A DNA stretch of 64,000 nucleotides. Origin: Geobacter sp. AOG2 (GTDB lineage Bacteria; Desulfobacterota; Desulfuromonadia; Geobacterales; Pseudopelobacteraceae). Made by a program: the position numbers and the translations under genes. This document shows positions 11,424 through 25,964 of this stretch, in pieces. The stretch lies in NCBI RefSeq assembly GCF_019972295.1, contig NZ_BLJA01000001.1:2484158-2548157 (forward strand), in the 5' to 3' direction. Every line of letters starts with the position of its first letter. The stretch's first letter is position 1. Under the pieces are notes generated by a model. That model saw nothing but the letters and a program-made list of their open reading frames with translations, did not search any database and was not told the DNA's origin.

Positions 11424-12170
11424 CTACTTCACCAGAAAGCCGTGTTTGGCAAGGATCGTCTTAGCCTCGGCCGATTGCAAATACCGGAAAAAGGCGGCGG
11501 CCTCAACCTTCTTACTGCCTGATACCGTCAGGGCCATGGGGTAGGTTACCCGCGTGTAGAACTCCTGGGGCACCGTAAACAGAATCCTGGCGGTTTTGGC
11601 CACCTGGAGGGCATCGGTCTTATAGACAAATGCACCGTCAACTTCCCCCCTATCGGCGTACAGCAAGCATTCGCGCACATCCTTGGCCATGACCAGTTTC
11701 TTTTCGAGCTGTTTTTCGATACCCGCCTTTTTGAAGGCCTCAGCGGCGTACTCACCGGCTGGGACGCTTTTGGGGCTGCCGATGGCAATTTTCTCCAGCT
11801 TGAGCACGTCGTTCAGGTTTGCGGCCTTCACCCCCGGCCGACCGGCGAATACCAGAGAGTTGTAGGCAAAGGTAGCGATGTTCTTGTCATCGGCCAGATG
11901 TTTTTCCTTTGCATAGTCCATCCACTTCAGGTTGGCAGAGATGAATATGTCCGCCGGAGCACCGTTCTCGATCTGTTTGGCCAGGGCGCCGGAAGCACCA
12001 TAGTTTTTCTTGAAGGTTACGCCACTGTTCTTTTTTGCAAAGCTGTCGGACAAATCATTGGCAACCTCTCTCATGCTGGCTGCCACAAACAGGTCGATCT
12101 CACCGGCCGACGCGGCGATGGGGAGCAAACAGACTGCAGCTACAATCAGATAGGATACTATTCGAGTCAT
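11424..12170 (-). CDS. modA: Molybdate ABC transporter, periplasmic binding protein
   Basis: Captures molybdate (and probably tungstate) in the periplasm for ModBC. A Sec signal peptide (YLIVAAVCLLPIAASAGE) precedes the mature ModA sequence LFVAASMREVANDLSDSF, FKKNYGASGALAKQIENGAPADIF and KLEKIAIGSPKSVPAGEYA, with the oxyanion-contacting Ser residues near the N-terminus. It has 248 residues. It starts the modABC operon, 69 nt after the modD stop. That gap contains a near-palindrome TTATGAAATTTTCATAA (about 12213-12230). Confidence 0.95.
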   Translation of the reverse strand: MTRIVSYLIVAAVCLLPIAASAGEIDLFVAASMREVANDLSDSFAKKNSGVTFKKNYGASGALAKQIENGAPADIFISANLKWMDYAKEKHLADDKNIATFAYNSLVFAGRPGVKAANLNDVLKLEKIAIGSPKSVPAGEYAAEAFKKAGIEKQLEKKLVMAKDVRECLLYADRGEVDGAFVYKTDALQVAKTARILFTVPQEFYTRVTYPMALTVSGSKKVEAAAFFRYLQSAEAKTILAKHGFLVK

Positions 12171-12239
12171 TGATGGTCTCCGTTTAAGATGAAATGGTTG
12201 ATAGTAATAAGACTTATGAAATTTTCATAATGGGCTTCT

Positions 12240-13094
12240 CTACGGTTGGCGGGGAACAATCCGGGCGCCAATGTCCGCAGGCTTGCCGAAATAGACCGAG
12301 GACAGAACGATGATGTCCACCCCACTGGCGGCATATTCCGCCACGTTTCCCTCGTTGATGCCGCCCGCCGCGGAGATTTTCACCGCCCGGTCCATGGCAT
12401 GGATATCGTCAACCAATTGCCGCAGTTCCGCCGGCGGCAGCTTGTCTACCTGAACCACATCGACTCCGGCCCCGGCAATGCGAAGCGCCTCGCTTGCATC
12501 GTCCGCCTCGACGATGATTCGGTTTTCCGGCACCTTGGCGCGCAAGTCGGCGACCCCTGCTAGCAAGGCATCCAGCCCGCCCAAAAAGGCAGTGTGCTGT
12601 TTGAACACCAGCACGGTCTCCGACAATCCCAGACGATGGGGTAGTGCTCCCCCAGCCATAATGGCCTTGATGGCTATCTTCTTGGTTCCGGGAAAGGACT
12701 TGCGGGTAGTAACCACCGCGATGCACGGATTCGCCCCTTTGGCTGCCTTTACGACCCTGGCGGTCCGCGAGGCGATGCCGGAAGCATACTCTAGCAGGTT
12801 CAAGGCAACCTTCCAACCGGCATGCAGCGCCTGTGCCGTTCCCATGGCGGTCAGAAAAACCGTCCCAGGAGCACAACACGTTCCGCTCGGTTCAAGGGTC
12901 AAGATGCGGCAGCCGCATTTCTCCAGTACCCGGCCCGCCTCCTCGCAACAGCAGAGGGTCGTCTCCTCACGGGTAGTAAAAGTAATGATGCCCGGCTGTG
13001 TACCGATACCGAGCAGGTGGGTGGTCAGGTCGCCATAGGGAAGGTCTTCATCGATAAAACGTTCGATCTCGCCGTCAGGCAAACAGGCTAGCAT
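12240..13094 (-). CDS. modD: ModD, nicotinate-nucleotide pyrophosphorylase-like molybdenum-locus protein
   Basis: 284 residues of the quinolinate phosphoribosyltransferase fold (DLPYGDLTTHLLGIG, NLLEYASGIASRTARVV, ATTRKSFPGTKKIAIKAIMAGGALPHRLGLSE, NRIIVEADD, ISAAGGINEGNVAEYAASGVD). Molybdenum loci often carry such a NadC paralogue, named ModD, whose exact reaction is unsettled. It replaces GGG..HR with GGALPHR as other ModD proteins do, and it should not be taken as NadC. It sits at the head of modD-modABC with a ModE-like box just before its start. Confidence 0.88.
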   Translation of the reverse strand: MLACLPDGEIERFIDEDLPYGDLTTHLLGIGTQPGIITFTTREETTLCCCEEAGRVLEKCGCRILTLEPSGTCCAPGTVFLTAMGTAQALHAGWKVALNLLEYASGIASRTARVVKAAKGANPCIAVVTTRKSFPGTKKIAIKAIMAGGALPHRLGLSETVLVFKQHTAFLGGLDALLAGVADLRAKVPENRIIVEADDASEALRIAGAGVDVVQVDKLPPAELRQLVDDIHAMDRAVKISAAGGINEGNVAEYAASGVDIIVLSSVYFGKPADIGARIVPRQP

Positions 13095-13112
13095 TGCATC
13101 CTCCCCCGTTCA

Positions 13113-13141
13113 TTCGCTATATTATTGTAAACATATCGTAA
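13113..13141. promoter_or_regulatory. ModE-like operator upstream of modD
   Basis: CGCTATAT, ten bases, then ATATCG forms an imperfect palindrome (13115-13138) resembling the CGCTATAT...ATAACG type ModE box. It lies 20-45 nt upstream of the modD start codon, where a repressor would block the promoter. The same half-site layout with the same spacing recurs at 16939-16966. Confidence 0.55.
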
Positions 13142-13148
13142 TCCCTAG

Positions 13149-13176
13149 AAAAAGGGGCAGCTCCGTTGATGCCCCT
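13149..13176 (-). terminator. Intrinsic terminator downstream of modE
   Basis: On the minus strand AGGGGCA/TGCCCCT (13153-13176) encloses a 10-nt loop and is followed by TTTTT. It lies about 30 nt past the modE stop and separates modE from the modD-modABC unit. Confidence 0.75.
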
Positions 13177-13203
13177 CCAGGATATCCCTAGTTGCGCTTC
13201 TGC

Positions 13204-14019
13204 TCAGCTCACGCCGAGGATGACGCTGGATGCCTTGAAGATGGCGCAGGCATGCCCCCCCACAACCAACCCCAGGTTTTTGCTACTCTCATGGGTAATA
13301 ACGGCGCTGATAGTGTTGCCGCCCCCCACCTCCACATCCACCTCGGCGCTGACCGGTCCTTCAATAATCTTGGCGACCGTGCCACACATGAGGTTCCGGG
13401 CGCTGAGCTTGGTATTGTGCAGTTCGGTTCCGATAATGACAGAACTAGCCTTAATGATGGCATAGGCTTCTTTTCCCACGGCCAACCCCAGGTTATCAAT
13501 GGCACCATTGGTGACAACAGCCGCTATGGTGGCCCCACCCTTGAGAGTCAGATCAACTTCGGCATTAACGGCGCCCTTGACGATCCTGGCCACGGTTCCG
13601 GCAAATACGTTACGTGCGCTTACTTTCATGGCAATCCTCCTCAGTAGTTGGTAAAGGCTATCGGCATCGCCTAGTTTGTCGGCAATATTTGCCAGAAACT
13701 TGCGATGTTCTTCCTGAATAATCTGAAACTCCCTCAGAACTTTTTTTCCTTCCGCGGTGAGGGTGGTCCCGCCGCCGCCCCTACCCCCGGCCAAGCGGTC
13801 GACCAGTGGCTTGTCGGCCAGGTTATTGATCATGTTGACCAGATCCCAGGCGGTCTTATAGCTAAGCCCAACTGCCTTCGCGGCCTTGGTGATCGAACCG
13901 AGTTCGCCGATCTGCTCCAGCAGACTGATCCGGTCTCCCCCCAGGAACTTCCGGTCTTCCTTGTGCAGCCACACGGCCCCGGAGAGCCCCAGCTTGGCAC
14001 TTTCCTGTAAAGATTTCAT
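13204..14019 (-). CDS. modE: Molybdate-responsive transcriptional regulator ModE
   Basis: DNA-binding sensor of molybdate. The N-terminal LysR-like winged helix (RISLLEQIGELGSITKAAKAVGLSYKTAWDLVNMINN, GGGGTTLTAEGKKVL) spans about residues 20-110. It is followed by two mop domains in tandem (KVSARNVFAGTVARIVKGAV; KLSARNLMCGTVAKIIEGPV) that bind oxyanion across the dimer. 271 residues from ATG 14017-14019, with GAGGGG 12 nt upstream. It is expected to repress modD-modABC when Mo is replete. Upstream are TTTACA-16-TATAAT and a CTGTAATTATACAG palindrome over the -10. Confidence 0.95.
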   Translation of the reverse strand: MKSLQESAKLGLSGAVWLHKEDRKFLGGDRISLLEQIGELGSITKAAKAVGLSYKTAWDLVNMINNLADKPLVDRLAGGRGGGGTTLTAEGKKVLREFQIIQEEHRKFLANIADKLGDADSLYQLLRRIAMKVSARNVFAGTVARIVKGAVNAEVDLTLKGGATIAAVVTNGAIDNLGLAVGKEAYAIIKASSVIIGTELHNTKLSARNLMCGTVAKIIEGPVSAEVDVEVGGGNTISAVITHESSKNLGLVVGGHACAIFKASSVILGVS

Positions 14020-14094
14020 AACGCAACCACACCCCTCTGTGTGCACCACAACCGCGCCCGCAAAAGACACGGAATTCTGTGCAGTATGGCTGTA

Positions 14095-14122
14095 ATTATA
14101 CAGGGATTGCCGGCCATGTAAA
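14095..14122 (-). promoter_or_regulatory. Promoter of modE with overlapping palindrome
   Basis: The minus strand carries TTTACA (complement of 14117-14122), 16 nt, then a perfect TATAAT (complement of 14095-14100), 76 nt before the modE start. The -10 lies inside the palindrome CTGTAATTATACAG, a possible operator for autoregulation. It does not resemble the ModE-like boxes found elsewhere. Confidence 0.6.
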
Positions 14123-14199
14123 GTGCATTAAACGGCATACAATCCAGCAAGCTGCCCACAGCGTGGCGCAGCCTGCCGATTTTTTACGCATGGGCCGGA

Positions 14200-15504
14200 T
14201 CAGAATACCATCTGCACCTGAAAGCGGACCTGGTTGTCGTCGGTCGGCTGCGTACCAGCGGTAGTGGATATGAGTCCAGCCTGTTTGTGGATATTGGTAT
14301 AGTCGGCCTGGACCTTAAGGTTGTGCGTGCTGTTGACGTACCAAGACGCACCGACGGCATTTTCGGTCCAGAGGTTCCTGGACGCGTCCCGATCCGGGTC
14401 AAGATAGGAGTAGCGGTAGGCCAGTTCGAGGGTTTTCGGAATCACGAAATAACCCGCCTGGGCGTAGAACCCCTGGGCACGCATCTTTTTGCCGGAGGTC
14501 TGCCCCTCGGCCTGGGCAAAGAAGTACTCTCCGGTGGCCGAGAAACCGAGCCATTTGAAGACCGCATCCGCGCCGCACGTGTTGAAGTCGATCTTTTCGC
14601 CGGTGGTGAATTTGCTCGTTCCCTTGCCGACCCCATACCAGCCGCCACTGGATTTCAGGAAAGAGAGTTGGTTGGTTTCCAGGGTACCGGTAGTGCCCGC
14701 GGTGTTGCTGAGGGTATCCCGGAAATAGTCGGCGCCGATGGACACCAGCGGTTTCTTGCTGTATTCCACGTCGGATTCGGAGTATTTTACCTCCCCCAGA
14801 GGGTTGGCCGTGAGCCGAGCGCTGAAGGCGTTGTCGGTCTTGCTTCGCCACGTGTTCTGGCCCACCCCGCCGTAGCCGGCGATGTTGTAGTTGAAGATCC
14901 CGCCAGCGATTTTGCCGTGGATCATGGCTCCGGTGTCATACCCCGGCACAAAGGCGGAGGTCACGATTGAGGCGTCCACAAACTGCTGTGCTGTGGAGGA
15001 GGTAATCCACTGGCGGCCGAACTGGACCTTGTCCTGCCCGAGACGGAACTGCACCTCGTTCATCAGGCGGTAGTTGAGCCAGACCTCTTCCATGGGGCCG
15101 TTGTTTGCAGTAGAGCCGCTGTTGAAGTTGGCAAAGTTGATGTTCATCTTGTAGGTCAGGTCCGGGGAATAGGCATGGCCATTGAACAGCAGCTTGATGC
15201 GGCGCAGCTCGAACTTGCTGTAGTCCGGGTCCGTGGCGGGTTTGTTGACGTCATCCCCGTCGAGGAAGGTGTAACGGACCTGATAGGAAGCTCCGATGGA
15301 AATGCCGAACTTACCGTCGGCCGTGGCGAAGTTGAGCCCCCCGCCTGGTTTGTACTTGATCTGGCTGCTTTTCTGAATTTCTTTGTAATCCTCTTCGGTA
15401 ATGACTCCCTTTTCCTTCAGCACGTCCTCAAGGCTCTTCGCCGAGACACTACCGGCCTGAGCCACAAGCAGGGCCAGCCCCAGCAAAATTCCCAACTTCT
15501 TCAT
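14200..15504 (-). CDS. Phosphate/oxyanion-type porin (OprO/OprP family)
   Basis: Outer-membrane beta-barrel of 434 residues. A signal peptide (MKKLGILLGLALLVAQAGSV, cleaved after SAK) and a short coiled segment (LEDVLKEKGVITEEDYKEI) precede the barrel: FELRRIKLLFNGHAYSPDLT, EVWLNYRLMNEVQFRLGQDK, QFVDASIVTSAF, and a terminal phenylalanine (VRFQVQMVF). The family includes phosphate-selective porins, but substrate cannot be read from sequence. Position next to modE/modD/modABC suggests molybdate or another oxyanion. ATG 15502-15504 has GGGGG 6 nt upstream. A terminator hairpin lies 80 nt before the start. Confidence 0.85.
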   Translation of the reverse strand: MKKLGILLGLALLVAQAGSVSAKSLEDVLKEKGVITEEDYKEIQKSSQIKYKPGGGLNFATADGKFGISIGASYQVRYTFLDGDDVNKPATDPDYSKFELRRIKLLFNGHAYSPDLTYKMNINFANFNSGSTANNGPMEEVWLNYRLMNEVQFRLGQDKVQFGRQWITSSTAQQFVDASIVTSAFVPGYDTGAMIHGKIAGGIFNYNIAGYGGVGQNTWRSKTDNAFSARLTANPLGEVKYSESDVEYSKKPLVSIGADYFRDTLSNTAGTTGTLETNQLSFLKSSGGWYGVGKGTSKFTTGEKIDFNTCGADAVFKWLGFSATGEYFFAQAEGQTSGKKMRAQGFYAQAGYFVIPKTLELAYRYSYLDPDRDASRNLWTENAVGASWYVNSTHNLKVQADYTNIHKQAGLISTTAGTQPTDDNQVRFQVQMVF

Positions 15505-15582
15505 AACAACCCCCTTTTGATTTATACGCACCCTGGAGCGCGCTACTACTGTTGCAGCATACTGTTTACCGCCTCAACTTGA

Positions 15583-15606
15583 AAAAAGGGGGGATTACTC
15601 CCCCCA
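15583..15606 (-). terminator. Terminator hairpin in the porin leader
   Basis: On the minus strand GGGGGGA/TCCCCCC (15589-15606) is followed by TTTTTT (complement of 15583-15588). It ends about 80 nt upstream of the porin start. Immediately before it lies a second strong hairpin, AAGGACTCAC/GTGAGTCTCCTT (15613-15636). This could be an attenuator of the porin mRNA, or the 3' end of a separate small RNA. Confidence 0.65.
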
Positions 15607-15807
15607 CCACATGAAGGAGACTCACGAGTGAGTCCTTGTTGCAACGCTTGCGGCGGACATTGAATTGTAGAAGCGCTCCAAGCATATAATGACCATTGGT
15701 TATCGGCCCCCGACATTGCGGCTCGCAGGACGGGATCCGGCTCACCCGATGCATGGAGGTTTCCGCCGTTAATGACGTAGACAACGCAGGGAGCGGGTAA
15801 TCCATGA
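15607..15807 (-). promoter_or_regulatory. Structured non-coding leader upstream of the porin gene
   Basis: No protein gene is visible between 15505 and 16125. The minus-strand RNA of this 200-nt stretch has several complementary blocks: CGGCGGA (about 15761-15767) with TCCGCCG (about 15649-15655), CGCTCC with GGAGCG, and CGGG/CCCG around GGATCC. It then enters the tandem hairpins at 15636-15583. The layout resembles a riboswitch or attenuator, but I matched it to no known aptamer class. The remainder of 15844-16125 shows nothing recognisable. Confidence 0.4.
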
Positions 15808-15827
15808 GCGCTGTATATATAACTATA

Positions 15828-15843
15828 TACATAACGCATGCCA
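15828..15843 (-). promoter_or_regulatory. Sigma-54-like promoter element B
   Basis: The minus strand reads TGGCATGCGTTATGTA. It matches TGGCACG-N4-TTGCA in the -24 box, with GT in place of the usual GC at -12. The same form (TGGCAYGNNTTATGTA) precedes nifH at 19127-19142 and recurs at 16867-16882. It would drive the porin leader. The overlapping sequence 15808-15837 is also palindromic (GCGCTGTATATA...), so a repressor site is an alternative reading. Confidence 0.45.
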
Positions 15844-16125
15844 CATATTTACGCCGACATCCGTTTATCCCACCCTCCGCACAAAATCAAACGAATCCTC
15901 TCACGTCAAAAACCGATGCGGCAACCGGCATCAAACTGGAAAATTGTCACGAACCAAGGAGTTACTTCAAGTGCGCGCTCCCTGCCTGCGCATGAACTCC
16001 AATGGGGAATAATTCTTTATTTCAACACAACAAACATCTTCTCCGGGTCTTTTGCCGCAACTTATTATCATTTTGATTGCTATTGTTATCATAGTGATAA
16101 CCGGTGATCATCATGAAAGCGACGG

Positions 16126-16524
16126 CTATCGACAGACAACGCAATCCCACTCATCATCACTGATGTCTGCAATCTGAGTTTTGCGCATCCAGGGTGCCGG
16201 GGTCCCTCTCAACACATTTTTCAGCCTGCCGATAACCTCTTCGACTGAAGACCCCATAGAAAACTTCATGGGATGAATGTGTTTTGCTACAAGCTTGGCC
16301 GCCGCCGGGCCGTTTATTTCACCGGCGCATACAATAGAACACCCCTTGAGTGCCGTGACACGGGCTGCGATCCTGTCATCCTCGTTTCCGCCGTCGTCGT
16401 CGATTCGTACCGTTGTCACGTAGTAAGCCTCGTCCGGACCGATATCCCAGACAGTGAAGCTGGTGGACTTACGGAAATTTTGGTCAATTTCGACACCGGT
16501 CGATGTCGTGAAAGCAACTTTCAT
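16126..16524 (-). CDS. NifX/NafY-type dinitrogenase iron-molybdenum cofactor carrier family protein
   Basis: 132 residues with the NifX/NifB-C fold: MKVAFTTSTGVEIDQNFRKS, FTVWDIGPDEAYYV, DDRIAARVTALKGCSIVCAG, GPAAAKLVAKHIHPMKFSMG. Members bind FeMo-co or its NifB-co precursor during nitrogenase cofactor assembly, though many are only paralogues. It ends in DDEWDCVVCR, which adds a CxxC not universal in the family. Its start lies about 75 nt downstream of the decayed nifH fragment in the same orientation, so both may derive from one nif operon. Confidence 0.82.
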   Translation of the reverse strand: MKVAFTTSTGVEIDQNFRKSTSFTVWDIGPDEAYYVTTVRIDDDGGNEDDRIAARVTALKGCSIVCAGEINGPAAAKLVAKHIHPMKFSMGSSVEEVIGRLKNVLRGTPAPWMRKTQIADISDDEWDCVVCR

Positions 16525-16599
16525 GCGCCCCCCTTCCCAGTCTCCATGGCCGCCTTACCACCCCATGGCCGCATTTTTACTAACATCACTTTGTCTACC

Positions 16600-16790
16600 T
16601 TCCTCATCACGCCGCACTTCATCAGGAAACCCAAACTCGTCCATATCCAATGAGTTCGTGACGACCCACATCTTGTTGTCGATCATCTTTTAGGCCAAAG
16701 TATTGCTCTTATTGGCCTGGGGATGGTCCGAGGCTTGTTCGATAGACGCCATGCGTCGCTGTCCGGAGTCCTTCACCCGGCTCCCTCCCC
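16600..16790 (-). pseudogene. nifH: Decayed 3' fragment of a second nifH gene
   Basis: The minus strand translates QRRMASIEQASDHPQANKS, NTLA, a TAA stop (16690-16692), then KMIDNKMWVVTNSLDMDEF. This aligns directly with the C-terminal region of the intact NifH in this window ([46 protein letters not shown]). At the DNA level long stretches agree (for example CATCTTGTTGTC at about 16669 and 18092). The P-loop, Cys ligands and most of the gene are gone, and a sigma-54-like element remains about 80 nt upstream. It is a remnant of a nifH duplication or of a displaced nif/anf/vnf operon. Confidence 0.85.
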
Positions 16791-16866
16791 TTTGCAGCAC
16801 CGGAAGAATATCGAGGCGGAAGCACACATTTACGTCACTAATGTAGCCGTGTGATATATATCCAAA

Positions 16867-16882
16867 TACATAACCCATGCCA
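16867..16882 (-). promoter_or_regulatory. Sigma-54-like promoter element C, upstream of the nifH remnant
   Basis: The minus strand reads TGGCATGGGTTATGTA, almost the same as element B and as the element before the intact nifH. It points at the nifH remnant and the NifX-like gene. I read it as the surviving promoter of the lost nifH copy. Confidence 0.45.
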
Positions 16883-16938
16883 AGTTGCCAAAACCGTACA
16901 ATTGTTTAAGCACTGGCAGTTACATAAATACGACGCGA

Positions 16939-16966
16939 TACGCTATATTACACAATGCATAACGAA
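16939..16966. promoter_or_regulatory. ModE-like box between divergent sigma-54-like promoters
   Basis: CGCTATAT, ten bases, then ATAACG forms an imperfect palindrome with the same half-sites and spacing as the box upstream of modD. It lies about 100 bp upstream of the FKBP promoter and about 57 bp upstream of element C. ModE could thus link molybdate status to these nif accessory genes. Confidence 0.5.
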
Positions 16967-17065
16967 TGGTCAAATACCACGTATATGCTCCATTATGCGG
17001 CAGTCTTGCCCCCCGCCGGGTTCCAGGAGTCTCCAGCAGAGAATGATTGTATTCAAAACACACCT

Positions 17066-17081
17066 CGGCCGACATGTTGCA
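17066..17081 (+). promoter_or_regulatory. Sigma-54 promoter of the FKBP-cowN unit
   Basis: CGGCCGACATGTTGCA has GG and GC separated by exactly ten bases and a perfect TTGCA -12 element. Transcription would start near 17093, about 37 nt before the FKBP start codon. The -24 box is weaker than consensus (CGGCCGA against TGGCACG). Confidence 0.6.
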
Positions 17082-17129
17082 TATGTCATAGAACCAGCAA
17101 TGAACAACCGCCTGCAAGGAGTATGAAAC

Positions 17130-17558
17130 ATGGCACACGCACAGCAGGGCAACACCGTATCGGTCCACTACATCGGAACCCTCGACAACGGGCGCATCTT
17201 TCATAGCACGACCGACGAAGAACCACTCGTGTTCACCATCGGCCAAAACCAGGTCTTTCCGGCCCTGGAACGGGCCGTAACCGGCATGGCCGTGGGGGAA
17301 ACGGTCAATATCGTCATCCCGGCCGACGAGGCCTACGGGCCGCGCTTGAAAGAGAACATCATTCGGGTGGAACGGACGTACTTTCCCGCTGAAAAAGAGA
17401 TCACGATTGGTCAAAAACTCAGCATCAGTTTCACGGGCGGCGGGGAACGGGTCGTACAAATTGTCGGTTTCAGCGAGACCGAGGTGACCCTGGACGGCAA
17501 TCATCCCCTGGCCGGCCTGGATCTGACCTTTGCTCTGCGACTGGACGGCATAGAATGA
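17130..17558 (+). CDS. FKBP-type (SlyD-like) peptidyl-prolyl cis-trans isomerase in a nif context
   Basis: 142-residue cytosolic foldase. The FKBP half is NTVSVHYIGTLDNGRIFHST, PLVFTIGQNQVFPALERAV and GMAVGETVNIVIPADEAYGP. The inserted chaperone flap spans about residues 70-120. The closing strand GNHPLAGLDLTFALRLDGIE is SlyD-like. The His-rich SlyD tail is absent. AAGGAG precedes ATG 17130. It lies under a sigma-54 promoter, 47 nt upstream of cowN and convergent with nifH. NifH maturation in Azotobacter needs a prolyl isomerase of another family (NifM), so this protein may play that part here; that is inference. Confidence 0.88.
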   Translation: MAHAQQGNTVSVHYIGTLDNGRIFHSTTDEEPLVFTIGQNQVFPALERAVTGMAVGETVNIVIPADEAYGPRLKENIIRVERTYFPAEKEITIGQKLSISFTGGGERVVQIVGFSETEVTLDGNHPLAGLDLTFALRLDGIE

Positions 17559-17605
17559 ATCAAGTGGTTTCCCGATAAAAATAAATAATCCGAAAGGCAG
17601 GCTTC

Positions 17606-17914
17606 ATGGAGGCAAAAACCGCAAAGCCGGACCGTTACGTATCGTTCGCCGGTATCAACGGCGATGAGAACTCACGGGTACTGATGGAAATGCTGCGCCG
17701 GCACATCGATGACCCGGAAAAGACCAACGCCTTCTGGGAGAAGTTCAAGGAGAAGCTGAACAGTGTGGGAGAACCGGACAAGACCTGCGGCCGCTGTCTT
17801 GACGAGCTGTTTCTGGTCCATTCCTACATCAACAACATCAGGGAGCTCTTCGAGACCTACGACGACCGGGATGCCCTGGAGTTACTGGAGCAGATCGAGG
17901 AGGAAAGCTGCTGA
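17606..17914 (+). CDS. cowN: N2-fixation sustaining protein CowN
   Basis: 102-residue cytosolic protein of the CowN family, which protects Mo-nitrogenase from inhibition by carbon monoxide. Recognised by [58 protein letters not shown] and [13 protein letters not shown], all of which match family positions. ATG 17606 has AGGCAGG upstream and follows the FKBP gene by 47 nt in what looks like one transcript. It ends at a hairpin shared with convergent nifH. A CxxC (KTCGRCLDE) near residue 61 appears to be an insertion relative to proteobacterial CowN. Confidence 0.85.
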
Positions 17915-17918
17915 AACA

Positions 17919-17950
17919 AAAAGCCGCATTCCCGAAAGAATGCGGCTTTT
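17919..17950. terminator. Bidirectional terminator between cowN and nifH
   Basis: A 13-bp perfect stem AAAAGCCGCATTC/GAATGCGGCTTTT closes a 6-nt loop. It has A and T tracts on both sides, so it can stop cowN (plus) and nifH (minus). It shows that nifH is transcribed without nifD/nifK behind it. Confidence 0.85.
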
Positions 17951-17980
17951 CTGTCTTCCACTATCTGACGGCGCAAGAAA

Positions 17981-18856
<876 letters not shown>

Positions 18857-19013
18857 TCATCCACTATAGTGGATTTACCACTGTTTTGAGGTAGCACAAT
18901 CAAGGCGCTACGGCTGCGCACGCATCACCGTATCCCCGGCCTCTTGAGCTGTATGCTCCGTTCAGTTCCCACAACTGGTTGTCGCCATTATTCTCCAGAC
19001 TATGTTCATTCGT

Positions 19014-19059
19014 TCAAAAAACAAAACGCCCCGCCTCTCATCTGCGAGAGCGGGGCGTT
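19014..19059 (-). terminator. Terminator inside the nifH leader
   Basis: On the minus strand AACGCCCCGC/GCGGGGCGTT (19025-19059) forms a 10-bp GC-rich stem extended by TCTC/GAGA around a 6-nt loop GCAGAT, and is followed by TTTTGTTTTTTG. It lies about 180 nt before the nifH start and downstream of the candidate promoter at 19127-19142, so nifH expression from that promoter would require antitermination. Confidence 0.75.
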
Positions 19060-19093
19060 GGCGCCGATTGCACGGGATTTGTGTAAATATCGG

Positions 19094-19113
19094 TGACATG
19101 GTCGAGCATGTCA
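19094..19113 (-). promoter_or_regulatory. Hexaloop hairpin in the nifH leader, candidate antiterminator site
   Basis: The minus strand forms a perfect 7-bp stem TGACATG/CATGTCA around the hexaloop CTCGAC, just after the predicted transcription start and before the leader terminator. Paired hexaloop hairpins ahead of terminators are the targets of ANTAR-domain antiterminators, but the usual A at loop position 1 is absent, while the G at position 4 is present. Confidence 0.4.
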
Positions 19114-19126
19114 TGTTCAGCAGTGT

Positions 19127-19142
19127 TACATAATACGTGCCA
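19127..19142 (-). promoter_or_regulatory. Sigma-54-like promoter upstream of nifH
   Basis: The minus strand reads TGGCACGTATTATGTA. The -24 box TGGCACG is perfect, but the -12 box has GT instead of GC. Transcription would start near 19117 and give a leader of about 270 nt. No better candidate is seen between the leader terminator and nifH. Confidence 0.5.
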
Positions 19143-19285
19143 ACAAGACTAAAAACAGTTAAAGGCCCTCAAACAGCTTGTTTCCAACCATTCTTCGTCA
19201 CTTGCCGTAACGCGGCGCCCAAAACAAATGATTAATTAATAGGCATACAGCAAACAATACAGGGCAACAAACATGGTAGTGACGA

Positions 19286-20302
19286 TCAGACGTACTCGAT
19301 CCGTTCTCCATTACGCAAGGCATTGCGGACAGCGGTCAATCGGGCGTCCATTTCCTCAAAGGCGGCCATGTTGGCCCGTTCGGCGGGACTAGTGGCTATA
19401 ATGGCCCGCACTCCTCCGTTCTTGAACACCAGTCGCCGATCCCCCATAAGGGCCAGGATGGGGTCATGGGTGGCCATCAGCACAATCTTGTGCCCGTCAA
19501 CGAGGGTCCGCACCGCTTTTTTCCGATCGATACCAGCGTTTTCGATCTCATCAATAAGCACAATGGGCGAGGTGCTGAGACAGGAGGTGTCGGCGATCAT
19601 CAGCGCCCGTGACTGGCCGCCGGACAGGGCCGTAACCGGGGTTTGGGGCGAGAAGTTTTCCCCAGCCAGTTCATTGGCCTTTTCGATGATGGTTCGGGTG
19701 ACTCCGGCCACGTCGTTTACCATGCGGCTCTCGGCGTGCATGGCGATAAACTCCTCCACGCTCAGGTCCATGACGAAGTTCATGTTCTGGGAGAGTTGGG
19801 CCACCAATTTATGCTCCAGGGAGAAACGACGCGTCGGGTCGGGCACGGCACCATTGATCAGCACCCGGCGGCGGGTGGGCGTATCCCCCTGGGCCATCCA
19901 TTCGATATCGGCCAGGAAGCGGCTCTTGCCGGAACCGGTCGGGCCGACGATGGAAACCACCTCCCCCGGCGTTACGGTCAGCACGAACCCCTCGTCGGCA
20001 CCGTTCTTGTCTACCCCCCCCTGGATGGTTATGGAGCCGATGGTCGGACCATTCTGTTTTTCCTGAAGCGAAATCAGGAGTGTCATAAAGGCGCTGAACT
20101 GTTCCCCCAACTCCCGGCGTTCGATCCCCAGATCTTCCAGTACCTCGGGTGGGATGCGCTCGATATAGGCGCCCACCGACTCGTCGGCCGACGGCAGCAT
20201 CAGCCCCAGGGAGGTGAAGAAATCCTCCGCATAGGGATAGTTACGCAGCAGATCCCCGCTCGGCATGGCGCTGTAGGGTACGGTATCATGATCGGTTGTC
20301 AT
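19286..20302 (-). CDS. Soluble ABC-type ATPase with N-terminal helical (DUF1858-like) module
   Basis: 338 residues, no membrane segment. The N-terminal 60 residues (GDLLRNYPYAEDFFTSLGLM) resemble the small helical DUF1858/ScdA_N module. Then comes an ABC ATPase domain: Walker A GPTGSGKSRF, Q-loop region AQLSQNMNF, signature LSGGQSRALM, Walker B SPIVLIDEIENAGID and switch MATHDP. The Walker B shape (VLIDEIEN) and the wide insert are not those of a typical importer. No permease gene is adjacent. Its start overlaps the GTPase gene by 4 nt (ATGA), so the three genes are translated together. Function unknown; an energy-coupled assembly or delivery role is inferred. Confidence 0.8.
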   Translation of the reverse strand: MTTDHDTVPYSAMPSGDLLRNYPYAEDFFTSLGLMLPSADESVGAYIERIPPEVLEDLGIERRELGEQFSAFMTLLISLQEKQNGPTIGSITIQGGVDKNGADEGFVLTVTPGEVVSIVGPTGSGKSRFLADIEWMAQGDTPTRRRVLINGAVPDPTRRFSLEHKLVAQLSQNMNFVMDLSVEEFIAMHAESRMVNDVAGVTRTIIEKANELAGENFSPQTPVTALSGGQSRALMIADTSCLSTSPIVLIDEIENAGIDRKKAVRTLVDGHKIVLMATHDPILALMGDRRLVFKNGGVRAIIATSPAERANMAAFEEMDARLTAVRNALRNGERIEYV

Positions 20303-20985
20303 GTAAAATCCATCTTCCTGACATTACCCATCTGGTAATCACTGCCGATACGGCGCTGGCCGAGACAGTAGGAACAGAGCGCCGCAGGCATGGTAAAGCG
20401 CAATAACCTGCCGGTGAGGGAGACCGTCTCCTTGGCGGCGGACAAAAGCCGACCCAGTTCATACCCCCCCTGGCCGGTTAGACCGTTGACATTGATTATG
20501 ACGGCTCCAGGATTGACCTGTTGCACCCGGTATGCGAACACCTCCCGTTCAGCCTGGGAGACGATGTCCCCCTTGGTGACCACCACGATGTCCGCCATCT
20601 TGAGCATCGGCCCGATCTTGCGCGGCGTATCCACCCCGCTCAGATTGTCGATCACGCAGACCGCGCACACATCCTTAATGTGGGGCGCGCAGCGGTTACA
20701 CAAACCGGCGCTCTCTGAGATCAGCAGGTCGAAGCCGCGCTGTTCCCCCCATTGCAGGCACTCCTGGATATTGCTGACGAAGAAATGGTCGGGGCAGAGG
20801 TTGCCGGACAGGCCGGTTTTTGCCTCGATGCCTTTCCGTTCGTACAGGGCCTGGTCCCCGGTGGAGAGACAGTCGAACTTTATGACGCCTACCTTCACCC
20901 CCTCCCCTTGCAGCGCCTCGGCCGCCTTGATGATCACGGAGGTCTTGCCCGATGAGGGCGGCCCAGCCACGGTGATCAGCCTCAT
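20299..20985 (-). CDS. G3E/HypB-UreG-like GTPase with cysteine motifs
   Basis: 228 residues. The P-loop GPPSSGKTSVIIKAAEAL is followed by VGVIKFDCLSTGD, FDLLISESAGLCNRCAPHI and VVVTKGDIVSQAE (TKGD in place of NKxD). This is the order seen in metallochaperone GTPases such as HypB and UreG. Extra cysteines (GNLCPDHF; CNRC then KDVCAVC; a C-terminal CSYC) could hold metal or an Fe-S cluster. It overlaps both neighbours by 4 nt. It is probably a nucleotide switch for metal or cofactor insertion into an unknown target. Confidence 0.8.
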   Translation of the reverse strand: MRLITVAGPPSSGKTSVIIKAAEALQGEGVKVGVIKFDCLSTGDQALYERKGIEAKTGLSGNLCPDHFFVSNIQECLQWGEQRGFDLLISESAGLCNRCAPHIKDVCAVCVIDNLSGVDTPRKIGPMLKMADIVVVTKGDIVSQAEREVFAYRVQQVNPGAVIINVNGLTGQGGYELGRLLSAAKETVSLTGRLLRFTMPAALCSYCLGQRRIGSDYQMGNVRKMDFT

Positions 20986-22223
20986 GTTCCGCTCCCCGCG
21001 AACGACCGGAGAAAGGTCGCATTGACCTCCACCAGCAGGGACTTGATGTCATTGTCCTTCACGTACTCCCAACCGATCCATTTGAAGGTCGCATCGTCCG
21101 GCAAGCCGTTGTCCACGTCGGGATGGACCGCCGGGAACGAGGCTCCGGCGCAGATCCCCGCCACTTGCGCCCCGGTCAGGAAATCGACCAGCGGTTGCAG
21201 CGCTTCGCGTTTTCCGGTCTTGACCAGCATGGTCACCGGACTGACCAGGGCGCCATCCTCCGGCCAGATGATGCTGATCCCCTGCCGGTCCCGCAGGTGC
21301 CGGGCAAAAAAGTACGGCATGACACTGACGGCAGGCGCATCCACACTGCCGGTGGCGGCGGCCTTGACCATCTGTGAGGGGTGCCAGCCGTACCGGACGT
21401 TTTCACCCAGACGGGATATGCCGTCCTCCCCGTGATCCTTGCGGATCGACAGCAACAGGGTCTCGCAGAAGGAACCGTCCCGGTTGCCGCGGATGGCGAC
21501 ACTCTTGCAATAGGCAGGCTTCAGGAGATCGTTCCAGGTCGAAGGGACTGGCCGGTCCCCGAGGCGCGCATGGTCGGCCACCATCACCAGCAGGTTCATG
21601 GCCAGCATGGTATACTGCCCTTGGGGATCGATCACCCCCAGCCGTGCCAGGTGCCGGTCTCCGCCAAAGGTGGAAACGCTGGTGAACAGACCCGGCTTGA
21701 TGAAACGCTCCACGAAGGGGCGGTGGAAGAAGCTGTTGAAGCCGGGGGTTACGATAATATCCGGCATGTCGTCAATGGATTTAAAATGATCCACCAGGGC
21801 ATAGTAATCGACGTCATGGTTGGCGTTACCCTCAAGGCAATGGGTGAAGGAGGCGCGCACTTCCGGGGGCAGAGTGTCCAGGTACGCCTCGAAGGCCTCC
21901 TCTATCGGCACCTTAAGCGGGCAGGGAAGCAGGGCGAACAGATTGAGGGGGCGGCCCGCCGCCTCGGGCACCGCCAGCTTCCGCGCCGTCCGGGCGGCCA
22001 CGGCAATCGCCTCGTCCAACTGCCGGCAGAACAGATCGGCGTTGAGGTTCCGTGCCGCAAGGAGAGTACGGAGCGTCACCACCGTCCCGAATGACGTACG
22101 CAAACCTTCATCAGCAACCATCTCCAGGCCGGCATTGACGAATACCGGCAGGGTTTCCGGGTGGTTGGCGAGTATGTGGCCGAGGTTTGAATTGAGTAAT
22201 GAGGACGGTGCGACGGTATCCAT
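20982..22223 (-). CDS. Cytosolic substrate-binding-like protein with N-terminal DUF1858-like module
   Basis: 413 residues. The N-terminal 70 residues (NLGHILANHPETLPVFVNAG, ADLFCRQLDEAIAVAARTA) look like the DUF1858/ScdA_N helical module also present at the start of the ABC ATPase of this operon. The rest resembles a type 2 periplasmic binding fold (PDIIVTPGFNSFFHRPFVER, NLLVMVADHARLGDRPVPST, AVSVMPYFFARHLRDRQGIS, LVSPVTMLVKTGKREALQPL, WIGWEYVKDNDI). There is no signal peptide, so it should stay in the cytoplasm, which is odd for a binding protein. First gene of the operon, 36 nt after the predicted sigma-54 start site. Confidence 0.78.
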   Translation of the reverse strand: MDTVAPSSLLNSNLGHILANHPETLPVFVNAGLEMVADEGLRTSFGTVVTLRTLLAARNLNADLFCRQLDEAIAVAARTARKLAVPEAAGRPLNLFALLPCPLKVPIEEAFEAYLDTLPPEVRASFTHCLEGNANHDVDYYALVDHFKSIDDMPDIIVTPGFNSFFHRPFVERFIKPGLFTSVSTFGGDRHLARLGVIDPQGQYTMLAMNLLVMVADHARLGDRPVPSTWNDLLKPAYCKSVAIRGNRDGSFCETLLLSIRKDHGEDGISRLGENVRYGWHPSQMVKAAATGSVDAPAVSVMPYFFARHLRDRQGISIIWPEDGALVSPVTMLVKTGKREALQPLVDFLTGAQVAGICAGASFPAVHPDVDNGLPDDATFKWIGWEYVKDNDIKSLLVEVNATFLRSFAGSGT

Positions 22224-22570: not shown

Positions 22571-24931
22571 TTACAGAACATCATGTTCTGTGCGAGTGAC
22601 AATTTCATCCTGCAACTCCTTGGAGAGGTCGCAGAAGTAATCGCTGTAGCCCGCCACACGCACGATCAGGTCCCGATGATTTTCAGGGTCAGCCTGGGCG
22701 GCCCGCAGGGTTTCTGCGCCCACCACGTTGAATTGGACATGGTGGCCATCCATACGGAAATAGCTCCTGACCAGGTTGGCCATCTTGTCGATCCCCTCCT
22801 CACCCTCCACCAACGCGGGCGTGAACTTCATATTGAGCAGGGTGCCGCCGGTGCGGATATGGTCCATCTTCCCGGCGGACTTAATGACACTGGTGGGGCC
22901 GTTTCGGTCCGCCCCCTGGACCGGCGAGATCCCCTCGGAAAGCGGCATGCCCGCCCGACGGCCATCCGGCGTAGCCCCCACGACCGAGCCGAAGTAGACG
23001 TGGCAGGTGGTGGGGAGCATCTCCACCCGGTAGTGCCCCCCCTTGCTGTTGGGCCTACCGTCCACGGCGGTGAAGAAACTCTCGAAAACCCGGCGCATCA
23101 GGTCGTCGGCATAGTCGTCGTCATTGCCGTACTTGTGGGTCCGGCTGAGCAGGCGCTGGCGGAGCAACTCCTGCCCCTCGAAATCCGAGTTGAGGGAATC
23201 CTGCAGCACCGCCAGAGGTAGGCGGCCGGAATCGAAAACCTGCTCCTTGAGAGCGGCCAGACAGTCGGTAATGCTCCCGATGCCCACCCCCTGGATGAAG
23301 GTGTTATTGTAGCGGGCTCCGCCAGCATTGTAGTCCAGTCCCTTCTTGATGCAGTCGTCGATCAGCACCGACAGGAACGGAGCCGGCATGAGTTCGGCGA
23401 ACATCTGCTCGATCAACTGGTTTCCGGCCATCTTGATTTCGATGAAGTGGCGCAACTGCGCTTCGAAAGCGGCGTACAGGTCGTCGAACGTGAAAAAGGT
23501 GGCCGGGTCGCCGGTATGTGATCCCACCTGACGGCCGGTGCGCGGGTCCATGCCGCTATGCAGGGCCAGTTCCAGCAATTTCACCAAGTTGAAGTACCCG
23601 GTGAGGATGTAGGCCTCCTTGCCAAAGGCCCCCACCTCTACACAGCCACTACACCCGCCCGCCCGGGCGTCCGTCAAGCTTTTCCCCTGGCGCAGTTGTT
23701 CCTCCACCACGCTGTCGGCGTTGAAAATGGAAGGGAAGCCGTAGCCTTTCCTGATCACCCGCAGGGCATGCTTGAGGAAGGCATCAGGGGATTTGCGGGA
23801 AAGCTGGATGTTGCTGCTGGGTTGGAGCAGGTGCATCTCGTCGATGATATCCAGCAGGATGTGGGACACCTCGTTGGCGCCGTCGGAACCGTCCGGCAGG
23901 AGCCCCCCCAGATTAATATTGGCAAAGTCTGTGTAGGTGCCGCTCTCAGCCGCTGTTACCCCCACCTTGGGGGGCGACGGATGATTGTTGAATTTGACGA
24001 AAAAACACTCCAGGAGTTCCCGCGCGACCTCCCGGGTCAAAAGCCCCTCGGCCAGGCCCTTTTCGTAGAACGGCAAGAGGTGCTGATCCAGGTGTCCAGG
24101 ACTCATGGAATCCCAGCCGTTCAACTCGGTGATGATGGCTAGGTGGCAGAACCAGTAGGCCTGGAGTGCTTCGTGGAAGTCACGGGGCGCGTGAGCCGGG
24201 ACATGGCGGCAGACCTCGGCGATACGCAGCAGTTCCATTCTGCGCGGTATATCCTGTTCCTGGAGGGCCAGGCGTTCGGCAAGTTCGGCATGCCGACCGG
24301 CAAACAGGATCACTGCGTCACAGGAGATATCCATGGCGGTAAGCTCTTCCCGTTTACGCCAAGCCAAGGGATCGCCGCTAAAGTCGAGCCGGGCGAGTTC
24401 ATCGGCGATCTCCGCCTTGAAGTCCACGAGTCCATGCTGGTAGAGCTTGCCATCCAGAACCGTGTGCCCCGGCGCCCGCTGTTCCATGAACTCGGTGAAG
24501 ATACCGGCGGCATAGGCCTCGTGCCATTCGGGCTTCAGCTGTGAAAAAATCTTGTCCCGCAGAGAGCGGCCGCGCCAGTAGGGAATCACGATATCCTCGT
24601 AGTCCCGGCGGCATTCTGCCGACACGGCGTAACTCGTCAAGGGGCGGGAGTCCAAAATCTCCAGGTCCTCAAGGCTGTGACAGGTCAGCTCCGGGTAGGT
24701 AGGCACCGCCTTGGGTTCGGGACCCCGTTCGCCGACGATTAGCTCCCCCTCCCCCAGCCAGATGGTCTTGTGGCGACAGATATGGAGAAAAGAGAGGGCG
24801 CGGGTCACCGGGATCGAGTATTTCCCTTCGTTCTCCCGGTAAAACTCCGTGATCAGCACCGCCCGTTCCGCGGAAATGCTCGGCCGGGCCTCCAGGCTCC
24901 TGCGCCGCAACCCCTCTGTACGTCCGGTCAT
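22571..24931 (-). CDS. Glycyl radical enzyme, HypD-like (putative trans-4-hydroxy-L-proline dehydratase)
   Basis: 786 residues of the pyruvate-formate-lyase superfamily. The thiyl cysteine lies in GGCSGCVEVGAFGKEAY near residue 430, with the catalytic Glu two residues on. The glycyl radical is Gly761 in RVAGYSDYF. Long stretches agree with clostridial HypD as I recall it (ELIVGERG, CHSLEDLE, AGIFTEFMEQRAPGHTVLDG, TELNGWD, TYTDFANINLGG, YGNDDDYADD, MLPTTCHVYFG, DHIRTGGTLLN, RMDGHHVQFNV). The pocket His, Asp, Ser, Tyr and Thr residues appear kept. No proC is adjacent, so another substrate is possible. The activase lies 3 nt upstream. Confidence 0.8.
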   Translation of the reverse strand: MTGRTEGLRRRSLEARPSISAERAVLITEFYRENEGKYSIPVTRALSFLHICRHKTIWLGEGELIVGERGPEPKAVPTYPELTCHSLEDLEILDSRPLTSYAVSAECRRDYEDIVIPYWRGRSLRDKIFSQLKPEWHEAYAAGIFTEFMEQRAPGHTVLDGKLYQHGLVDFKAEIADELARLDFSGDPLAWRKREELTAMDISCDAVILFAGRHAELAERLALQEQDIPRRMELLRIAEVCRHVPAHAPRDFHEALQAYWFCHLAIITELNGWDSMSPGHLDQHLLPFYEKGLAEGLLTREVARELLECFFVKFNNHPSPPKVGVTAAESGTYTDFANINLGGLLPDGSDGANEVSHILLDIIDEMHLLQPSSNIQLSRKSPDAFLKHALRVIRKGYGFPSIFNADSVVEEQLRQGKSLTDARAGGCSGCVEVGAFGKEAYILTGYFNLVKLLELALHSGMDPRTGRQVGSHTGDPATFFTFDDLYAAFEAQLRHFIEIKMAGNQLIEQMFAELMPAPFLSVLIDDCIKKGLDYNAGGARYNNTFIQGVGIGSITDCLAALKEQVFDSGRLPLAVLQDSLNSDFEGQELLRQRLLSRTHKYGNDDDYADDLMRRVFESFFTAVDGRPNSKGGHYRVEMLPTTCHVYFGSVVGATPDGRRAGMPLSEGISPVQGADRNGPTSVIKSAGKMDHIRTGGTLLNMKFTPALVEGEEGIDKMANLVRSYFRMDGHHVQFNVVGAETLRAAQADPENHRDLIVRVAGYSDYFCDLSKELQDEIVTRTEHDVL

Positions 24932-24934
24932 GCC

Positions 24935-25816
24935 CTACCCTCCTATTTTGGTGACCAACCCCACGCTCCGAAATATCTTTGCCAACTCTTCCATACGCTC
25001 TTGGGTCGGCGTTGTCGTATCATTATCCGGGATGGCACGCCCCAGGCGACCAAGTTTACCGTGCCAGGTTCTATGAAAGGGGAGCAGGTTTACTTGACGC
25101 ACCCCTTGAATACCGGCTGTGAAACAGGCAGTTTCCGCCAAGTTTGCCTCATCGTCGTTCACGCCGGGGATGATGGGTACCCGTATCCAGATCGCACCGT
25201 GGACCAGTCCAAGGGCAGCTAGATTATCCAGAACCTGCCGGTTGCCCAGGCCCGTCGCCTCGCAATGCCGTCGGTCATCCATCAGCTTCAGGTCGTACAG
25301 GAACAGATCGGCCAGTTTTGATATCTCCAGCAGATGCTCCAAGGGAGCAAAACCGCCGGTGTCCACTGCGGTCCGTATCCCCTGTTCCCGGCAGGCAACA
25401 AGCAACGCCCGAAGGAACTCGAACTGCATGAGCGGCTCTCCGCCGGAAAAGGTGACACCCCCGGCCGATTCCTCATAAAAGATCCGGTCCTGCATGACGG
25501 CGGTCATCACCTGGGCCGTGGTCATCTCCCTACCGGCCAGGCTACGCGCGCCCGGAGGGCAGACCTCCACGCACGCCCCGCACAAAAGACAATCGGCCCC
25601 GCCCTGTTTACCATCCCCGATGATCGCTCGGGGGCAGGCAGCAATGCACTCCCCGCAGGCCAGGCAGCGGCTCTCCATGACGGTTGTCTCCGGCCGAGAG
25701 GCTTGGCTTTCGGGGTTATGACACCACCAGCAGCGCGCCGGGCACCCCTTCAGAAAAACCGTGGTGCGGATGCCGGGGCCATCTGAGATAGAATATTTCT
25801 GGATATTGAAGACCAT
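24935..25816 (-). CDS. Glycyl radical enzyme activating enzyme (radical SAM)
   Basis: Installs the glycyl radical on the downstream HypD-like enzyme using SAM. The N-terminus MVFNIQKYSISDGPGIRTTV is followed by the CxxxCxxC motif GCPARCWWC. Two 4Fe-4S ferredoxin motifs come next (CLACGECIAACP, CLLCGACVEVCP), as in the PflA group that activates dehydratase-type enzymes. SGGEPLMQ and the C-terminal barrel (VPIIPGVNDDEANL) follow. The ATG at 25814-25816 fits the family; another in-frame ATG lies three codons upstream (25825). Neither has a good SD. Confidence 0.93.
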   Translation of the reverse strand: MVFNIQKYSISDGPGIRTTVFLKGCPARCWWCHNPESQASRPETTVMESRCLACGECIAACPRAIIGDGKQGGADCLLCGACVEVCPPGARSLAGREMTTAQVMTAVMQDRIFYEESAGGVTFSGGEPLMQFEFLRALLVACREQGIRTAVDTGGFAPLEHLLEISKLADLFLYDLKLMDDRRHCEATGLGNRQVLDNLAALGLVHGAIWIRVPIIPGVNDDEANLAETACFTAGIQGVRQVNLLPFHRTWHGKLGRLGRAIPDNDTTTPTQERMEELAKIFRSVGLVTKIGG

Positions 25817-25964
25817 ACCGAACATCGGCGCAAAATAGCATGCATGTTCTTACTGTTACAAGATTTTTACCGCTATCTCGCGAATTCATTGACTCGGTGA
25901 ACAAATTTTCAAATTGCAAGTTCCGATTCAATTATTCTTTCCGCTATCTCAACCACGGAGCAAA

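Follow-up and report, generated by a model that had tools for sequence, protein, structure and literature searches.

The minus strand of the 64,000-nucleotide region analysed here (the window), which comes from the genome of Geobacter sp. AOG2 (G000; 3.92 Mb, single contig), carries next to a NifX-like gene a short stretch resembling the 3′ part of nifH, and this raises the question whether a complete nifH once stood at this place and, if so, to which operon it belonged and how it was lost. The first-pass annotation had read the stretch as the remnant of a second nifH, and as the trace of a nif (or anf/vnf) operon that was lost or rearranged; this interpretation is supported as largely right, with the corrections given below.

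A broken third nifH beside a NifX-like gene

In a local DNA alignment, the reverse complement of 16540-16882 matched the nifH region of the window with a score of 89, against a mean of 21.2 (sd 2.1, maximum 30) in 300 dinucleotide shuffles, and the NifH protein of the window, used as the query against the genome, retrieved the same place at E 3.1e-7 (47% identity over residues 215-263, with one TAA). Neither chance nor another P-loop family accounts for the similarity, since the score exceeds every shuffle and the best match is a nifH of the Mo type. The remnant spans 16602..16765 (minus strand) and aligns with nifH codons ~219-274, as numbered against the 289-codon gene of the congener G003; the C-terminal homology proposed earlier therefore holds, with these codons as its extent instead of the last 60, and the in-frame stop is the TAA at 16690..16692 (minus strand). 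The N-terminal three quarters of the gene are absent, and with only these codons and the TAA left, the remnant does not have the P-loop, the two cluster cysteines, and the full ~270-aa domain that mark an intact NifH of the PF00142/TIGR01287 family. Its protein alignment stops after an LDMDEF stretch, and it is missing from the hits of a genome-wide PF00142 profile search.

The remnant was compared with 40 distinct nifH-family sequences, which were left of the 49 loci supplied after duplicates and partial hits had been dropped. The best DNA match among them was the nifX-linked nifH of G003 (score 153), followed by the copies of the intact window gene nifH2 in G001, G002, and G000 itself (135, 125, and 122, respectively), and the protein identity was 27/50 residues with the G003 gene and 20-25/49 with the other 36 Mo-type copies. 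All 37 Mo-type NifH sequences scored 71-153 and the three AnfH sequences 27-49, by which a remnant of anfH is ruled out; no V-nitrogenase was met among the relatives examined. Thus, what was lost is the nifH of a Mo-type nifH-nifX unit, and the part of the earlier claim that extended to an anf or vnf operon was not borne out.

The NifH-family genes over the Pfam cut-off in G000 are nifH2 (17981..18844, minus strand; an intact orphan found by profile searches ~1.2-2 kb from the remnant), a nifH at 420381-421241, and two more distant relatives. Genes of the nitrogenase component I type (PF00148) lie at 421504-424250, directly behind the nifH at 420381-421241, which makes this the nifH of nifHDK (nifH1), ~2 Mb distant from the remnant; the second PF00148 place, one 969-aa frame at 325416-328028, appears to be a nifEN-type fusion, and profile searches found no nifD- or nifK-type gene in the 64-kb window. 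Therefore, with nifHDK elsewhere in the genome and the nifH of the window intact, the remnant is the third nifH of G000 (nifH3) and not the second, as had been assumed.

Compared over 34 codons, the remnant and the G003 gene differ at 12/5/10 sites of codon positions 1/2/3 (a small sample), against 3-5/2-4/8-14 for the six pairs among four intact nifH genes. As its changes are spread evenly over the codon positions, the coding constraint is lost in the remnant. The neighbouring gene at 16126..16524 (minus strand), the second of the old operon, had been called NifX-like and is real: it matches Pfam PF02579 (dinitrogenase cofactor-binding domain) with 59.9 bits against a gathering cut-off of 26.3, and narrowly misses that of NCBIfam TIGR02663 (109 bits, cut-off 112, residues 1-116 of 132), for which reason the name NifX-like is retained. 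Between G000 and G003, nifX differs at 14/12/54 sites of codon positions 1/2/3 over 118 codons; this pair is one example of nifX pairs between species, in which position 3 carries most of the changes, and nifX is therefore under purifying selection.

With NifH homology above chance, lost coding constraint, and a syntenic intact gene in a relative, the stretch 16602-16765 is confirmed as a real nifH pseudogene. It is ordinary in kind, not differing from pseudogenes of redundant paralogues, with which it shares the truncation, the in-frame stop, the even changes over codon positions, and an intact syntenic orthologue in a sister species; its useful trait is the informative comparative series provided by the varied outcomes in the congeners.

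Fate of the locus within the genus

Six genomes of the genus (G000-G005, G000 included) were compared, and the full gene that had been suggested to persist in relatives is found in G003, wherein an intact nifH (L183 8608-9477, stop included; PF00142 426 bits for the first 288 codons) lies at the same locus, with FKBP-cowN on one side and modE-modD on the other, and ends 33 bp before nifX. The gene order of G000 is that of G003 with the remnant replacing nifH and a porin gene added between nifX and modE (14200..15531, minus strand; profile matches and locus comparison); the gene for the FKBP-type prolyl isomerase (17130..17558, plus strand; profile matches) is divergent from the remnant, and beyond it lies cowN (17606..17914, plus strand; 124 bits vs a cut-off of 48), whose product protects nitrogenase from CO. 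G002 and G005 have FKBP, nifX, porin, and modE, and G004 has FKBP and nifX, all three with no nifH between FKBP and nifX, and the G001 locus is without nifH3, nifX, and porin, only a modE tail remaining.

The gap between FKBP and nifX measures 1371 bp in G003, 605 bp in G000, and 559, 560, and 547 bp in G002, G005, and G004, respectively, and what is kept in it differs among the genomes. G004 retains the leader and the beginning of nifH, after which nifX follows; G002 and G005 retain the leader, with a degenerate nifH start; and G000 retains the promoter end together with the 3′ part of nifH. Therefore, at least two distinct routes led to the loss of nifH3 within the genus, while nifX stayed. 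In a long-gap global alignment the gaps were scattered and the deletion endpoints not cleanly placed, so that one and several deletions are not separable; a net loss of ~766 bp (vs G003) would have taken out nifH codons 1 to ~218 in G000 together with the leader's 3′ half, and the remaining part of nifH3 would have decayed after the deletion. The genus thus presents a series of nifH loss, from the intact gene through two different partial deletions to the loss of the whole segment, and with nifX retained in 5/6 genomes, a separate NifX-like role under molybdenum shortage becomes testable.

Based on these findings, the fragment is, with high confidence, what is left of nifH3 as a pseudogene; nifH3 came first in a nifH-nifX operon, which a congener still has intact at the corresponding position. 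A different origin would be the copying of only a part of the orphan nifH, by segmental duplication or failed gene conversion, so that a full gene never stood here; the nifH2 copies of G001, G002, and G000 do come next behind the G003 gene in DNA score, and a promoter-like element is common to both loci of the window. However, G003 has the intact gene at exactly the same place, the leader upstream of the remnant matches the model of the nifX-linked leaders, and the nifH2 leader model has no match at the remnant at E<=1e-3; the remnant is also largely diverged from nifH2 (125/176 bases identical), and shares LDMDEF with the G003 gene where nifH2 has LEMEEL, all of which makes a partial duplication very improbable.

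In the NifH tree, the nifX-linked nifH genes of G003 and of the relative G021 group together (97/96), apart from the group of the window nifH2 (100/99); the G003 row, for L183 8608-9465, is flagged as a long branch (0.32), by which its placement is unsure, and this length is perhaps due to relaxed selection before the loss. The nifX-linked nifH of G021 is no closer to the remnant than other copies are (score 107, 22/49), and therefore the orthology of the remnant rests on its position, its leader, and the match with G003. As for the loss of nifH3 itself, it may have been made dispensable by nifH1 of nifHDK and, in this genome, nifH2, because these make nearly the same protein.

Promoter-like elements, ModE-type sites, and leaders

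Sigma-54 promoters have the consensus GG-N10-GC at -24/-12. A sigma-54-like element with GT replacing GC, TTGGCATGGGTTATGTA, lies at 16867..16883 (minus strand) upstream of the remnant, and its resemblance to the element of the intact nifH, noticed in the first-pass annotation, holds on comparison with TTGGCACGTATTATGTA (19127..19143, minus strand; pattern search); the porin gene is preceded by TGGCATGCGTTATGTA. The pattern was written after the sites had been seen, and its expectation is 0.025 per shuffled 3.8 kb. The form GG-N10-GT, instead of GG-N10-GC, is common to the remnant, nifH2, and porin elements and to the leaders of 23/29 nifH2-type genes (window and congeners included), wherein the pattern lies 242-303 nt upstream of nifH. 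The elements may be sigma-54 promoters with GT at -12. At the remnant, the element belongs to what survives of the former nifH leader (16786..16883, minus strand): its 5′ part, with the promoter-like element, an operator-like site, and the first ~100 nt, is present, and its 3′ half is missing; against a leader model built from G002, G003, G004, and G005, the 5′ part scored 37 bits in nhmmer (E 1.2e-9), over model positions 2-100 only.

The ModE operator is a palindrome of the CGTTATATA-N6-TATATAACG type. A scan using this half-site gave five hits at four places in the 64 kb, against 0.65 (maximum 2) in 20 local shuffles: proximal to the remnant and nifX (16852..16875, minus strand), in the interval between FKBP and the remnant (16941..16964, CGCTATATT-N6-TGCATAACG), upstream of the porin gene (15811..15836), and at 13115-13138. 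Two palindromes of the ModE operator type hence lie upstream of the remnant. None was found in the 20-kb nifHDK region (L010), and such sites occur also in the five congener loci, in the nifH-nifX unit of the relative G014, and in the gap between FKBP and a regulator gene in the relative G019. The modE-type regulator gene at 13204..14070 (minus strand) encodes TOBE and HTH_1 domains; its product exceeds the cut-off for the Mop domain (TIGR00638, 149 vs 55) and misses those of both NCBIfam ModE models (TIGR00637, 95.4 of 98.5; NF007957, 162 of 369), and behind the gene lie modD and modABC, as named by eye. Because a ModE-type regulator adjoins and ModE-type palindromes are present, a molybdenum-controlled nifH-nifX operon is probably the simplest reading of these sequences.

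We propose that this operon was read from the sigma-54-like promoter, overlapped by a putative ModE operator, and that under the predicted ModE control it would have been on when molybdenum is scarce, its output being extra Fe protein and the cofactor carrier NifX. At present, nifX would depend on the former nifH promoter for its transcription, and its 5′ untranslated region would be formed by the defunct end of nifH.

The stretch could also be functional as it stands, either as a small protein or as a regulatory 5′ untranslated region of nifX; an ORF of 62 aa exists (16690-16878), and transcription from the promoter-like element would place the stretch in the nifX transcript. However, this ORF starts inside the promoter- and operator-like sites and ends with the TAA of the remnant, the congeners have other sequence at this place, and there is neither an Rfam match at gathering at the remnant nor a terminator-like site in 16500-17000, so that such a function is quite improbable and the stretch is better explained as the nifH3 pseudogene.

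The leader of nifH2 contains a terminator-like hairpin (19025..19059, minus strand) between the promoter-like element and the gene, which shows in a direct fold (-30.1 kcal/mol for 19020-19075, z -4.0), though the terminator scan did not pick it up, and which suggests an attenuator. By eye, GC-rich hairpins before T-runs occur in many other Geobacterales nifH leaders.

Directly before nifH2 lies a conserved leader element (18880..18959, minus strand; ~80-83 nt, from alignment and covariance model), whose consensus of 13 aligned copies has a short hairpin and a three-way junction with 18 pairs; four of these pairs have changes on both sides, a number reached by 31/500 shuffles. The covariance model finds the element in 29/141 genomes of the order, at 30 places (L207-L236), and in 3/395 genomes of a phylum-wide sample, each of which again belongs to this order, with stricter filters in both surveys by which weak matches are lost. 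It stands directly before nifH at 29/30 places, the remaining one lying close to the end of a contig, where nifH is not within reach, and nifD is seen in 0/30 of these loci, which span only 2-631 bp past the nifH match. Among 28 distinct rows, which were aligned to the model and hence lean to it, 94.8% of cells pair; their covariation score of 0.136 was reached by 0/500 shuffles and their four double-change pairs by 134/500. The window copy alone folds no better than shuffles (z +0.79), and therefore the case for the element rests on the alignment. In Rfam, the whole window gave only three tRNAs at gathering, the nifX-linked leader of G003 chance-level hits only, and the orphan nifH leader of the relative G011 chance-level hits to SAM_alpha (11 bits, cut-off 36) and sno_ncR3 (12 bits, cut-off 88). 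The nifH2 leader element can be regarded as a reasonable, though unproven, cis-regulatory RNA candidate.

In Geobacter sulfurreducens, nif genes are subject to GnfR/ANTAR antitermination. G000 resembles this system in having a response regulator with an ANTAR domain ~4.5 kb upstream of nifHDK, and in the terminator-like hairpins of nifH leaders (by fold for nifH2, by eye for the others); the remnant locus differs, as the 3′ half of the leader is gone. In one report, GnfR is named as a nitrogen-fixation response regulator (PMC7962754).

Fe-only nitrogenase loci and related systems

Fe-only nitrogenase genes are present in three Geobacterales relatives (G014 C31:36153-41192, G009 C12:357008-362169, and G019 C1:3608032-3612657). 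The remnant locus might be the residue of an anf island, whose ancestor had anfHDGK-anfO beside modE, cowN-FKBP, and nifH-nifX, lost anf, and saw nifH3 decay later; this is compatible with a nifH3 pseudogene of a nifH-nifX operon and not exclusive of it. In the relatives, AnfD is over cut-off in G014 and G009 (1073 and 1051 bits), AnfK in G009 and G019 (that of G014, a partial sequence, is below), and AnfO in G014 and G009, and anfHDGK-anfO adjoins modE-modD-mod genes in G014 and G009. Behind the nifH-nifX of G014 stands a regulator of the NifA type, which at 496 bits misses the NifA cut-off (529); this regulator, nifX, and nifH lie 3-7 kb beyond anfO, and next come ABC-ATPase, HypB-like, and SBP genes that resemble the genes of the window at 19286-22223. 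In G019, cowN-FKBP is found ~9 kb from anfK beside a gene 82% identical to the G014 regulator, with a ModE-type box between, and in G009 a porin gene and a NifX-like gene stand beside anf.

However, anfG (PF03139), the gene by which an Fe-only nitrogenase locus is recognized, occurs in 3/57 genomes (G000 included) and in 0/6 members of this genus, and the remnant, differing in this from the anf islands with which the locus shares modE and mod genes, cowN-FKBP, and a nearby NifX-like gene, is of a Mo-type NifH. Neither the congener loci nor window 12000-22000 gave an AnfD, AnfG, AnfK, or AnfO match at E<=1e-3 (in the rest of the window the search covered hits of >=45% identity), and an AnfH query matched nifH genes only in these loci and this part of the window. 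The nifX of the G009 island is only 37-38% identical to that of the window, the related nifX of G019 lies ~19 kb from anfK without a nifH, and the anf genes could equally be later insertions at molybdenum-controlled loci. Therefore, the neighbourhoods in the relatives make a lost island thinkable, and with no AnfD, AnfG, AnfK, or AnfO match it is possible yet doubtful. A NifA-type query also matches a regulator in G004 (L186 12344-13645, 34%).

A wider scenario, which we consider unlikely on present sequence evidence, would be the stepwise dismantling of a molybdenum-starvation nitrogenase island, wherein a ModE-controlled module (cowN-FKBP, nifH-nifX, porin, mod, and perhaps anf) lost its catalytic genes, NifX was kept for a molybdenum-starvation role of its own that is independent of a linked nifH, and the orphan nifH2 came under an undescribed structured RNA leader. 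Among the titles listed by literature searches, none deals with a remnant of nifH or with a riboswitch of nifH in Geobacter.

Mise et al. 2021 (PMC8597730) apply the term 'pseudo-nifH' to nifH-like genes that make no contribution to nitrogen fixation and belong mainly to genomes lacking nifDK; 'Geobacter' occurs 0 times in the main text of that paper. These genes are like the ones treated here in being nifH-family genes without adjoining nifDK, and differ in that G000 has nifHDK, with nifH2 an orphan paralogue and nifH3 broken. In Geobacterales, a fragment of nifH or an orphan copy of the gene does not by itself indicate an additional nitrogenase.

Farther along the window, 19286-22223 (minus strand) encodes an ABC-type ATPase, a HypB/UreG-like GTPase, and a DUF1858-SBP_bac_6 protein, with no permease adjoining; the ATPase is present in 22/57 genomes at E<=1e-60, and the trio is also found near nifH-nifX in G014. 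The region 22571-25825 (minus strand) encodes a trans-4-hydroxy-L-proline dehydratase, a glycyl radical enzyme (1243 bits vs a cut-off of 1100), with its likely activating enzyme, assigned by eye, at 24935-25825.
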